A stretch of DNA of 36,665 bases, taken from a virus. The notes under the pieces were generated by a model. That model was not told the origin of the DNA. It did no database searches and saw only the letters and a list, made by a program, of their open reading frames with translations. Positions 31,777-34,721 of the stretch are shown piece after piece. The position numbers and the translations under genes are program-made. Where the stretch lies: positions 1 through 36,665 of IMG/VR virus record IMGVR_UViG_3300044800_000058; one strand, given 5' to 3'. Every line of letters begins with the position of its first letter. Within the stretch, counting starts at the first letter, position 1.

Positions 31777-32115
31777 TCACCTCCAATGATGTCTTTCATC
31801 CACGGGTACTCCGTCCACATCGCAATCCCCTACGGGTTTACCGCTTGTCTTGTGGCCAAACCCGCCGTCCTGTCGCGCCGTCTTTACCGAATGACAGGTC
31901 TCACATAAATTCTGATGGTTTGTCGGTTCCCAGAACAATGGATCGTCTGGGCCACTTACCGGAACGACATGATCGACGTGGCCGCCTACCTTGACAATGC
32001 CACGCTTAAAGCAGTCCGCACAGAGTGGATGGTTCTTTCGGAACCTTCTAGAATATCTAGCCCACCGTGAAGTATAGCCGCGTTCTTGTGCGGATAACCT
32101 ACTTTTGATTGGCAT
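31777..32115 (-). CDS. HNH endonuclease next to terminase (112 aa)
   Basis: The core NHPLCADCFKRGIVKVGGHV, DHVVPVSGPDDP and NHQNLCETCHSVKTARQ has the full zinc-binding and catalytic layout (C-x2-C ... H-x-D-H-V-x-P ... N-x-x-x-L-C-x-x-C-H). This is the terminase-associated HNH type (HK97 gp74-like), which stimulates TerL cutting at cos. The start at 32115 has AAAGGGAAAAG before it; the longest frame, to 32145, overlaps the preceding gene more. The C-terminal tail is Gly/Asp-rich (GDCDVDGVPVDERHHW). Confidence 0.87.
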   Translation of the reverse strand: MPIKSRLSAQERGYTSRWARYSRRFRKNHPLCADCFKRGIVKVGGHVDHVVPVSGPDDPLFWEPTNHQNLCETCHSVKTARQDGGFGHKTSGKPVGDCDVDGVPVDERHHWR

Positions 32116-32281
32116 TCTTTTCCCTTTCCTTTGCGAGTGCGTCATGCAGATCCATAATGTCGTTCAATTGCCGGTTGATGATCTTCTGTTGTTCATTCAG
32201 TTGTGTATCTTGATAGACGACACGATTCTGCAGGGCAACGATAACCTCCTGGACGGTTTCTATATGGATTCGTTTCGTCAT
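32099..32281 (-). CDS. Small coiled-coil protein (60 aa)
   Basis: The product (MTKRIHIETVQEVIVALQNR) is a single amphipathic helix with regular hydrophobic spacing (IINRQLNDIMDLHDALAKER), ending in Lys/Asn. The ATG at 32281 has GGTGGAG before it and overlaps the stop of the small membrane-protein gene (ATGA). It overlaps the HNH gene by 17 bases. The longer frame upstream is the membrane gene in another frame and is not part of it. Function unknown. Confidence 0.6.
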   Translation of the reverse strand: MTKRIHIETVQEVIVALQNRVVYQDTQLNEQQKIINRQLNDIMDLHDALAKEREKNANQK

Positions 32282-32406: not shown

Positions 32407-33162
32407 TCACCCTATCCTGCTTGCGAGTTCTTTGACGCGCTTCATATTCTCAATCCTATCTGCCTCACTGATCTCCGGCATTTCTTCTGAGATGTATTCT
32501 TTCGGCTTCATAATGGGTATAATTGCCAGAGTCTTCGTTGGGGGTGTGAAATTTCTTTTCTCCCAGTTCCTGACCGCCGCCTTCCAATCTTTCATTTTAT
32601 TTTTGCCTACCATCCAACCGTTTGAAGTGTAATGGTCAATAAATGCCTGAGGGTCTATTGAGTTGTTGCGTTCTTTGCAATATCCGGAAACCTCTTGAAG
32701 CATAGGAGGGACAAAAGGCGCAGTCCTTTTTCCCTTATCTTTATTCTTTGAAACTGTAACTGAAACTGAAGAAGGGACGTGACGTTTCCGTGACGGCGGC
32801 GTTACTTCGGCGTTAGGGCCTTCCTTTCCCCTGAACCTTCTTTGTCTTAACCTATTATGTTCCCTGTCTTTTTCATCTTGCATCATGCGCCGTGACCAGA
32901 GCGTTACATAGCCGTTAGCCTCACGCTGTCCAGAGGCAATTTTTTCATTTAATAGATAATCAATAATGCGATTGGTGGTATCAATATCCTTATTTAAAAT
33001 AACGGCCCATCGTTCAGGTCTTAATGTTAATCTGCCCCTTTGTGGAGCCCACCACATGCGGCAACAAAACCTCTGCCATGCACCCTCGATTTCAATGTCG
33101 TGATCATCGAGATCGCGCTGCCAATCACCGGGATAAAAAAGGTAGGCGGGATTTTTCCCCAT
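32407..33162 (-). CDS. Replication initiation / replisome organiser-like protein (251 aa)
   Basis: The N-terminus NPAYLFYPGDWQRDLDDHDI followed by EGAWQRFCCRMWWAPQRGRL is the DUF1376/YdaU-like pattern (P-x-x-x-F-Y-P-G-D-W) of phage replication initiators. The middle is basic and linker-like (REHNRLRQRRFRGKEG). The C-terminus FIDHYTSNGWMVGKNKMKDW, then KAAVRNWEKRNF, is the DnaD/replisome-organiser-type segment that recruits host helicase loaders. The ATG at 33162 overlaps the methyltransferase stop (TGATG). The phage origin may lie within or near this gene, but no iterons are seen in it. Confidence 0.8.
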   Translation of the reverse strand: MGKNPAYLFYPGDWQRDLDDHDIEIEGAWQRFCCRMWWAPQRGRLTLRPERWAVILNKDIDTTNRIIDYLLNEKIASGQREANGYVTLWSRRMMQDEKDREHNRLRQRRFRGKEGPNAEVTPPSRKRHVPSSVSVTVSKNKDKGKRTAPFVPPMLQEVSGYCKERNNSIDPQAFIDHYTSNGWMVGKNKMKDWKAAVRNWEKRNFTPPTKTLAIIPIMKPKEYISEEMPEISEADRIENMKRVKELASRIG

Positions 33163-34079
33163 CAAATCACCCTATACTCGGTTTCTAACATTGCCTTCAT
33201 AATCTGATATGCTACTTGTGGAACTATCGCGTTTCCAAGTGCTTTAAGTCTGTGTACCCTATCGGATACCCCATCATCCACTCGACAAAGGCGGGTTGCA
33301 ACTTCAAGCCACGGTTCTTGCCAATGACCACTCCTACTGATGGGGAGTATTCCCCGTGTGGCTTCGTGTCCCGGCTCTGCCCGGATGCCCCCGGCGTTGG
33401 CAGAATTGCATCGCAATATTTCGGGCGTTTTGAACTGTGAAGCTTCGCTTGAACCATATCCTGCATCGTCACCATTGAATCGGTCGGTGTCGGGAGCATG
33501 GCAATCTGTCTGCCCAAATTCAACCCCCTGCTTCCCTCTCCATTTTTCTGTTTCCTTCTGCCAGTTTCCGTTAGTTCGCAATCCGATTCCACTTCCTGGG
33601 TGTTCGGTGTTGAAAGCAACAATCCATACCCTGTCCCTTCTGTGCGGGGCGTTGACGGCACAAGCTGGAATAATAAATGTCTGTGTCTCGTATTGAAGCC
33701 CCTCCAAGTCAAATAGACATTGGTCGAGTTCCATATTGATGATTCCAGCAACATTCTCCCCAATGACCCAAGTGGGCCTTGCTTCCGATATAACTCTGAG
33801 CATTTCCGGCCAGATTGCACGGTCATCTTCCTTGCCTCGTCGCTTCCCGGCGCAACTGAACGGCTGGCAGGGGAATCCTCCGGTGAGAATAAAGGGGCGT
33901 TCTCCTGCCCATTTGAATGTTTTGATGTCATCATGTATTGGTACCCCCTTAAAGTTCTTCCGCAAAACCTTCTGGCAAAATTTATCTATTTCTACAAATT
34001 GAATTGTCTCAATCCCCGCCCACCTTGCGGCGAGAGCAAAGCCGCCAATGCCACTAAATAAATCAATATGGTTATACAA
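33162..34079 (-). CDS. dcm: DNA (cytosine-5-)-methyltransferase (305 aa, TTG start)
   Basis: All main C5-methyltransferase motifs are present: motif I DLFSGIGGF (residues 6-14), motif IV GGFPCQPFS with the catalytic Cys near 71, motif VI ENV near 108-110, motif VIII PHRRDRVW near 145-152, and motif X ALGNAIVP near 285. The target recognition region (about 170-265) is variable. The enzyme would methylate phage DNA to evade host restriction; no partner restriction enzyme gene is seen. The start is a TTG overlapping the upstream TAA region and gives the family N-terminus. A second long reading frame overlaps most of the gene and is listed separately. Confidence 0.92.
   Translation of the reverse strand: MYNHIDLFSGIGGFALAARWAGIETIQFVEIDKFCQKVLRKNFKGVPIHDDIKTFKWAGERPFILTGGFPCQPFSCAGKRRGKEDDRAIWPEMLRVISEARPTWVIGENVAGIINMELDQCLFDLEGLQYETQTFIIPACAVNAPHRRDRVWIVAFNTEHPGSGIGLRTNGNWQKETEKWRGKQGVEFGQTDCHAPDTDRFNGDDAGYGSSEASQFKTPEILRCNSANAGGIRAEPGHEATRGILPISRSGHWQEPWLEVATRLCRVDDGVSDRVHRLKALGNAIVPQVAYQIMKAMLETEYRVI
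33224..33934 (-). CDS. Long overlapping ORF in another frame of the methyltransferase gene (236 aa)
   Basis: This frame lies in the +1 register relative to the methyltransferase. It opens with an ATG and encodes a product with motifs I remember from annotated phage proteins: RKMTVQSGRKCSELYRKQGP, LGSLGRMLLESSIWNSTN, and a C-terminal LQPAFVEWMMGYPIGYTDLK like the L-x-P-x-F-V-E-W-x-M-G-x-P-x-G-W-T-D-L ending of a phage protein family. It may be truly dual-coding, or conserved only because the methyltransferase frame is conserved. No strong ribosome binding site was found. Treat it as a candidate. Confidence 0.4.
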   Translation of the reverse strand: MMTSKHSNGQENAPLFSPEDSPASRSVAPGSDEARKMTVQSGRKCSELYRKQGPLGSLGRMLLESSIWNSTNVYLTWRGFNTRHRHLLFQLVPSTPRTEGTGYGLLLSTPNTQEVESDCELTETGRRKQKNGEGSRGLNLGRQIAMLPTPTDSMVTMQDMVQAKLHSSKRPKYCDAILPTPGASGQSRDTKPHGEYSPSVGVVIGKNRGLKLQPAFVEWMMGYPIGYTDLKHLETR

Positions 34080-34311
34080 CCCGATACTCTGTCAATCCCT
34101 GCCGGATATACTGGCAGTCATAGTCAAGTCCATGTTTTCTAAGATATGGCCGAATATCCGTTCTTAGTCTTGCCGTATCAACCTTCAGCGTATGGTGCAG
34201 CTCATGCAGTGTGATCCGCCCGTTCTCGCGCAGCCATTCATAGACGCGATGATTGCCCGTTCCCGGACGGTAAGGATTTGGCGGGAAAAATTGGAGTTCG
34301 GTTTGCGTCAT
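34072..34311 (-). CDS. Small HTH-like protein (79 aa)
   Basis: The ATG at 34311 overlaps the VRR-NUC stop (ATGA). The product contains PYRPGTGNHRVYEWLRENGR, ITLHELHHTLKVDTARLRTD, IRPYLRKHGLDYDCQ. This is a winged-helix-like unit (helix, turn, L-x-x-x-L-x-V-x-x-x-x-L-R-x-D-I) usual in small phage DNA-binding proteins. The C-terminal strand QYIRQGLTEYRVV would be the wing. The longer frame upstream overlaps VRR-NUC and is not needed. Confidence 0.65.
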   Translation of the reverse strand: MTQTELQFFPPNPYRPGTGNHRVYEWLRENGRITLHELHHTLKVDTARLRTDIRPYLRKHGLDYDCQYIRQGLTEYRVV

Positions 34312-34721
34312 ATCTTTTTCTTCTCGGGATCCAATATAAAACAGGCGACATGCCTTCCGGACCCACGCGGATTCACATAATTTGATTGACCGCATTTCCT
34401 ATTCTTATACTCCACAAATTTATCCTGCAGACCCAGGGCCTCGATCACGTCCTCGACGGATCTGGCGCAGACAACGACACCTCCATGAAGTTTGATCTCT
34501 GATAGGAACAGTGCCTGGGCATCACTTAATTTACCTTTGGGAGCCTTGCATTCGATTGCCAGCATTTTTCCGTCTGGCATGATTCCGAGAATATCCGCGA
34601 TTCCAGGCTTTGATCCCATGCCCTGCCATGCTTTCCAATGGTATATGCGTGCGTGGCTGAGCACGTCACGGATCTGGCGGGTGAGGATGCTTTCTGCTGT
34701 GGGCTTTCTATAGGGTCTCAT
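34308..34721 (-). CDS. VRR-NUC domain nuclease (137 aa)
   Basis: The core GMGSKPGIADILGIMPDGKM, LAIECKAPKGKLS and DAQALFLSEIKLHGGVVVCA contains the VRR-NUC signature: G-x-P-D/G-I-A-D-x-x, then an E-x-K motif (IECK) and Q-x-x-F-L. These phage nucleases act on branched DNA, possibly as Holliday junction resolvases that debranch DNA before packaging. The stop overlaps the next gene (ATGA). The start lies in an 11-residue leader's stop overlap. Confidence 0.88.
   Translation of the reverse strand: MRPYRKPTAESILTRQIRDVLSHARIYHWKAWQGMGSKPGIADILGIMPDGKMLAIECKAPKGKLSDAQALFLSEIKLHGGVVVCARSVEDVIEALGLQDKFVEYKNRKCGQSNYVNPRGSGRHVACFILDPEKKKI

Follow-up and report, generated by a model that had tools for sequence, protein, structure and literature searches.

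The window analyzed here is a viral DNA stretch of 36,665 nucleotides (IMG/VR record IMGVR_UViG_3300044800_000058) that carries, on its minus strand, a C5-cytosine methyltransferase (MTase) ORF, which we call alpha. A second frame, beta, lies wholly within the alpha ORF in the +1 register (Table 1). A sequence-only reading of this DNA had reported a 236-codon +1 frame with an ATG inside the methyltransferase gene, and we found it exactly as described. The MTase adjoins replication-type genes, and the neighboring minus-strand ORFs at 34308-34721 and 31777-32145 resemble, by eye, a nuclease of the VRR-NUC type and an HNH endonuclease.

Table 1. Features of the overlapping methyltransferase locus in the window.
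Feature	Position	Strand	Remarks
Alpha, C5-cytosine methyltransferase ORF	33162..34079	-	305 aa, TTG start; motifs I-VIII and X
Alpha motif I (DLFSGIGGF), outside beta	34038..34064	-	Sequence; region A omega
Shine-Dalgarno-like AAGGGGG	33944..33950	-	9 nt upstream of the beta ATG (33932-33934); inside the alpha codons for (K)GVPIHDD
Beta, overlapping second gene	33224..33934	-	236 aa, ATG start; +1 register relative to alpha
Region B, dual-coding: alpha motifs IV-VIII and beta N-terminal domain	33623..33926	-	Substitution analysis, AF2
Beta module array, three L/I-x-TP-anchored modules	33305..33616	-	Proposed target-recognition cassettes
Beta module TQEVES..	33497-33616	-	
Beta module TDSMVTMQD..	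33404-33496	-	
Beta module GASGQSRDT..	33305-33403	-	
Beta C-terminal KLQPAFVEWMMGYPIGYTDL, motif IX-like block	33245..33304	-	Spacing as in M.HhaI and the Streptomyces in-frame motif IX
Alpha motif X (RLKALGNAIVPQVAYQI), mostly outside beta	33200..33244	-	Sequence; region E omega

Alpha has the features of a C5-MTase, namely a match to PF00145 and motifs I, IV (PCQ), VI (ENV), VIII, and X. The PF00145 match (E = 8e-42) spans residues 3-167 only, and the alignment with M.HhaI covers residues 4-158 only. Beta, which contains FVEWMMGYPIG, matched PHROG_1008 ("DNA methyltransferase") along almost its entire length (E = 1e-29, residues 13-229); Pfam and NCBIfam gave no match. A match to PHROG_1008 was seen for 41/41 aligned beta proteins. 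The AF2 model of the whole of beta is of low confidence (pLDDT 59), with two helices and a hairpin predicted at modest confidence in the N-terminal domain (pLDDT 60-88, residues 31-100).

Could the +1 frame be open merely by chance? We shuffled synonymous codons, leaving the encoded MTase and the codon usage unchanged, and took the longest +1 ORF as the measure. In the window MTase, it reaches 253 codons, compared with 92 on average after shuffling (p = 0.001; p = 0.003 under a junction-preserving shuffle). Among 65 relatives, 59 were significant at p < 0.01 in the +1 frame, compared with 3 in the +2 frame. Power is much lower with the junction-preserving shuffles (30/65 at p < 0.01), which are uninformative for high-GC loci such as L007. 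Because the 65 relatives had been selected in part through second-frame similarity, an independent sample was drawn by alignment to MTase motifs I-VIII only, in which 71 MTases reach motif X. In this sample, the +1 ORF was significantly open in 70 of the 71 complete MTases; stops in the second frame of relatives, named beforehand as the observation that would speak against a second gene, are absent in this MTase clade. The exceptions are L129-131, canonical MTases whose own frame includes motif IX and whose +1 frame is full of stops. Loci L150 and L153, in which both frames are broken at once, were treated as indels and excluded as evidence. Their register changes at a single point in both frames, as if by one indel (assembly error or decay); for L153, a natural fusion of the alpha N-terminus with beta is a further option.

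The second frame might nevertheless be a mere shadow of methyltransferase conservation, with the database entries being miscalls. We therefore scored real +1 frames against synonymously recoded MTases, using a leave-one-out HMM of the other second frames. The window second frame scored 234 bits compared with 92 ± 13 for its recoded versions. Such an echo is real, as about 40% of the beta profile score outlasts the synonymous recoding of alpha, and the presence of the ATG is also mostly forced by alpha. However, it is partial, amounting to about 92 of the 234 bits for the window, and held-out second frames stood about 11 SD above the recoded methyltransferases overall (z = 7.8-13.7 in 16/16 loci). 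Averaged over 12 loci, the beyond-echo z was 6.1 for beta and 9.4 for alpha across motifs IV-VIII, and 8.3 and 3.9, respectively, from motif VIII towards X. The open +1 frame in nearly all of the independent sample also speaks against the echo.

Which frame is constrained where was evaluated in 81 independent pairs (mean identity 77%) taken from a set of 177 dual-frame MTases. Each substitution was assigned to a class according to what it changes in the two frames, with dNN/dNS as the measure for the +1 frame and dNN/dSN for alpha (95% bootstrap intervals in parentheses). The regions before (A) and after (E) the overlap served as internal negative controls, and there the +1 frame was unconstrained, with omega values of 1.11 (0.98-1.25) and 0.84 (0.65-1.08), compared with 0.26 and 0.16 for alpha. 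Across motifs IV-VIII (region B), both frames were constrained (beta 0.70 (0.65-0.75), alpha 0.36 (0.33-0.39)). From motif VIII to 30 codons before motif X (region C), beta was constrained at 0.27 (0.23-0.30) and alpha was neutral at 0.96 (0.82-1.10); over the 30 codons directly preceding X, beta was at 0.34 and alpha at 0.55. These results show that the controlling frame switches along the gene. They also answer the synonymous-site check that had been proposed for this locus, with a strong excess of constraint at MTase-synonymous sites inside the overlap and none outside.

A dNN/dNS of 0.27 over a stretch where alpha is neutral is impossible from constraint on alpha, and consequently the echo cannot hold there. 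As a full explanation, it is ruled out by codon shuffling, profile scoring, and substitution classes, and we give it virtually no credence. The second frame is a genuinely selected gene. The suggestion that both frames are used is supported by the profile, shuffle, and substitution tests, which point to selection on both. Alpha was continuous in 71 of the 73 uncut loci of the independent sample (2/73 were without it). About 4 alpha stops would be expected over region C and the last 30 codons before X if selection acted on beta only; since alpha stays open despite this expectation, it is read through. Between motifs VIII and X, alpha behaves as a sequence-neutral linker that must only stay open.

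What does beta encode? Its end, KLQPAFVEWMMGYPIGYTDL, has the same spacing as motif IX of M.HhaI, RKLHPRECARVMGYPDSYKV. No motif IX was recognizable in the alpha frame of the window or group-wide (0/71), and among the 71 MTases of the independent sample the motif was found in the +1 frame of 59, in frame 0 of none, and in the +2 frame of none, with 12 escaping the regular expression. In a larger set of 190 distinct MTases, motif IX was in frame 0 in 54, in the +1 frame in 110, and in both in 0; the remaining 26 escaped the pattern, and among those displayed, either one frame holds the block or there is an insertion. Streptomyces and Gulosibacter MTases carry a near-identical block, RLTPAFVEWMMGLP, in frame with motifs I-VIII and X, and in the Streptomyces MTases the in-frame LTPAFVEWMMGLP lies 23 residues before the GN of motif X, compared with 20 in M.HhaI. 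A predicted model of the Streptomyces-type in-frame MTase aligned with M.HhaI over 222 residues (Z 21.6, rmsd 2.8), with the stretch between motifs VIII and IX unstructured (pLDDT 23-31). Because the beta profile found no match in the PDB, its identification as motif IX rests on spacing, position, and in-frame homologues, by which the C-terminus of beta is best read as the motif IX missing from alpha.

The segments are arranged differently in other lineages. In two viral contigs (L084/L085), alpha ends right after motif VIII, and an overlapping +1 ORF carries the modules, IX, and X; we considered these contigs as instances of a stand-alone beta and rejected them, as alpha lies upstream. In a Gulosibacter and a Streptomyces locus (L152, L156), the MTase frame itself holds both the PTP modules and motif IX, without conservation of the +1 frame, an arrangement that appears to be the natural single-chain version. 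In the Streptomyces type (11 pairs), the module ORF is constrained at 0.39 compared with 0.99 for the MTase frame, whereas at motif IX the MTase frame is at 0.40 compared with 1.12. From the Streptomyces-type, L152/L156, and L084/L085 layouts, it would follow that, in the layouts examined, any given segment (modules, IX, X) is assigned to one of the two frames.

These layouts also bear on whether beta is a part of the enzyme at all. It might be an independent regulator or anti-restriction protein whose overlap with the MTase is incidental, and its divergent N-terminal domain and lack of a PDB or Pfam match would fit such a role. However, a motif IX match is confined to one of the two frames and never present in both, the modules are fused with IX and X in L084/L085, and L152 and L156, without a conserved +1 frame, have modules and IX in that of the MTase; we consider an independent beta very unlikely. 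The evidence, compared across hundreds of related loci, indicates that beta is the missing target-recognizing part of the same enzyme. The second product had been proposed to modulate the methyltransferase, and it is better read as this missing part, with motif IX and probable target-recognition modules. Similarly, the search for a second frame encoded without the first, which the earlier reading had called for, found no stand-alone beta among the phages, plasmids, viral contigs, and genomes examined, and every full-length beta relative overlaps an MTase frame.

Upstream of motif IX, beta proteins carry a mean of 2.8 L/W-PTP anchors (range 0-7), each followed by ~40 residues. Module pairs that share 55% identity or more despite a backbone identity of less than 50% numbered 465, of which 266 were at differing array positions; in the most extreme pair, the modules are 100% identical and the backbones 47%. 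As far as their sequences tell, the modules are tandem, exchangeable, and located in the recognition region, and in their mosaicism they resemble exchangeable target-recognition cassettes. Part of the module identity may reflect recent recombination.

The way in which beta is translated separates two further readings. An internal ATG at alpha codons 40-58 was present in 106/144 relatives compared with 101 expected in shuffles, and is not enriched. On the other hand, a +1 ATG preceded by a Shine-Dalgarno-like site was found in 31/144 relatives compared with 12.5 ± 2.7 in shuffles, a clear enrichment; a null that also loses the open frame gives a larger excess, and we prefer the comparison of 31 with 12.5. 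Furthermore, several +1 ORFs open directly after a stop beside such a start. The main rival to a separately translated beta is a programmed frameshift past motif VIII, by which ribosomes would leave alpha for the +1 frame and yield a single chain with the modules and motif IX. It agrees with the control of region C by the +1 frame, and the L084/L085 layout, in which alpha stops after VIII and the modules, IX, and X lie in +1, fits a shift equally well. Yet a shift after motif VIII would leave no need for the constraint on the +1 frame upstream, across motifs IV-VIII, nor does it account for the enriched starts, the ORFs that open directly after a stop, or an alpha frame that stays open through region C against the stops expected if only beta mattered. 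We regard the frameshift as unlikely.

We consider it highly probable that one DNA stretch, read in two frames, encodes a heteromeric C5-cytosine MTase, in which alpha would be the catalytic subunit and beta would provide target recognition and motif IX. In this proposed two-subunit enzyme, alpha (frame 0) would form the catalytic large domain with motifs I-VIII and X, joined by the neutral linker between VIII and X. Beta, probably translated independently from its internal ATG and Shine-Dalgarno-like site in the +1 frame, would consist of tandem exchangeable L/W-PTP modules followed by motif IX, and would bind alpha and supply the small domain with target recognition. The beta modules would set the sequences that are methylated, and the methylation probably protects the phage DNA from host restriction.

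Both frames were read directly in phages of Paenibacillus, Lactobacillus, Escherichia (ZCEC5), and Klebsiella, in mycobacteriophage Spikelee, in a Nostoc and a Leptospira plasmid, and in E. coli prophages, with further loci from MAGs of several phyla. The phage database entries mentioned in the earlier reading for the second frame do exist: SHELLY_56 of phage Shelly bears the annotation "g55 internal gene", and the two Leyra frames (LEYRA_61 and LEYRA_62) are each called DNA-cytosine methyltransferase. In E. coli XYEH3314 (L415) and a Bacteroides finegoldii plasmid (L417), such loci are annotated as pseudogene fragments or short separate proteins; as a result of such annotation, both subunits are under-represented in the records.

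Among known systems, M.EcoHK31I, which has M.EaeI as a relative, recognizes YGGCCR and consists of subunits of some 309 and 176 aa, with the small ORF nested out of frame within the large one. According to PMC3404938, which cites Lee, Kam and Shaw (1995), the large polypeptide carries motifs I-VIII and X and the predicted TRD, and the small one motif IX only; two proteins are required according to the title of Lee, Kam and Shaw (1995), and the enzyme is called naturally split in PMC3439449. M.EcoHK31I is a precedent for a separate motif IX polypeptide, and the present system shares with it the placement of motif IX on the second polypeptide and of I-VIII and X on the first, here at the sequence level and there by description. 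It differs in spanning phages, prophages, and plasmids of many phyla, and in the mosaic module arrays carried by beta. Moreover, the VIII-X region is ruled here by the small-subunit frame and is neutral in alpha, whereas there the TRD is predicted in the large subunit (PMC3404938), a placement at odds with this neutrality of alpha.

M.AquI (CYCGRG) is a two-polypeptide C5-MTase split in the variable region, with motif X on the small subunit (PMC3404938). L084/L085 share this I-VIII / TRD-IX-X partition, with the genes overlapping, and their +1 ORF has the content of an M.AquI-type small subunit (part of the TRD, IX, and X); in contrast, the window beta stops before X, which remains on alpha, and the two genes overlap over most of their length. 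Single-chain enzymes of the M.HhaI type resemble the locus in motifs I-VIII and X of alpha and in the motif IX spacing of beta, but they carry motif IX and target recognition in the same chain, and the +1 frame of the canonical relatives is not open (L129-131). Multispecific C5-MTases of Bacillus phages carry several short exchangeable recognition modules in tandem in the MTase frame. The tandem exchangeable modules described here are similar, as judged by sequence alone, but are located in an overlapping +1 gene.

An out-of-frame gene inside a phage methylase gene is also known from the actinophage ShiLan, where a hidden HNH endonuclease gene forms a mobile insertion (PMC11855218). The overlap described here differs in that it runs through the conserved enzyme core; the window beta contains no HNH motif and overlaps conserved MTase motifs. 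An HNH-like insertion was seen only in two viral contigs (L114, L116). There, the MTase gene contains a large insert that leaves the MTase frame open and codes, in +1 and past the end of beta, for a zinc-finger protein that is HNH-like (YCEFCGK..CQKCGAEKDLHVHHKDFQPINNDPQNLETLCSSCHLKYH); this recalls the ShiLan element. We found no account of a phage-wide overlap in the literature searched, with most subscription journals outside its scope.

In dsDNA phages and bacteria, long pairs of overlapping genes are considered rare, and annotation usually drops them. The overlap described here is widespread, comes with internal selection controls, and would join the two halves of one enzyme. In a large viral C5-methyltransferase clade, the target-recognition subunit is probably an overlapping +1 gene, with cassettes being acquired, lost, and swapped in a stretch where the catalytic subunit need only stay open, and lineages differ in the frame that carries each segment. 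If true, this would account for PHROG_1008, a common hypothetical or mislabelled phage protein, and the expression of these methyltransferases from a single ORF is predicted to fail or to lose specificity. It would also provide a natural setting for tracing specificity modules in one frame against a neutral partner frame.
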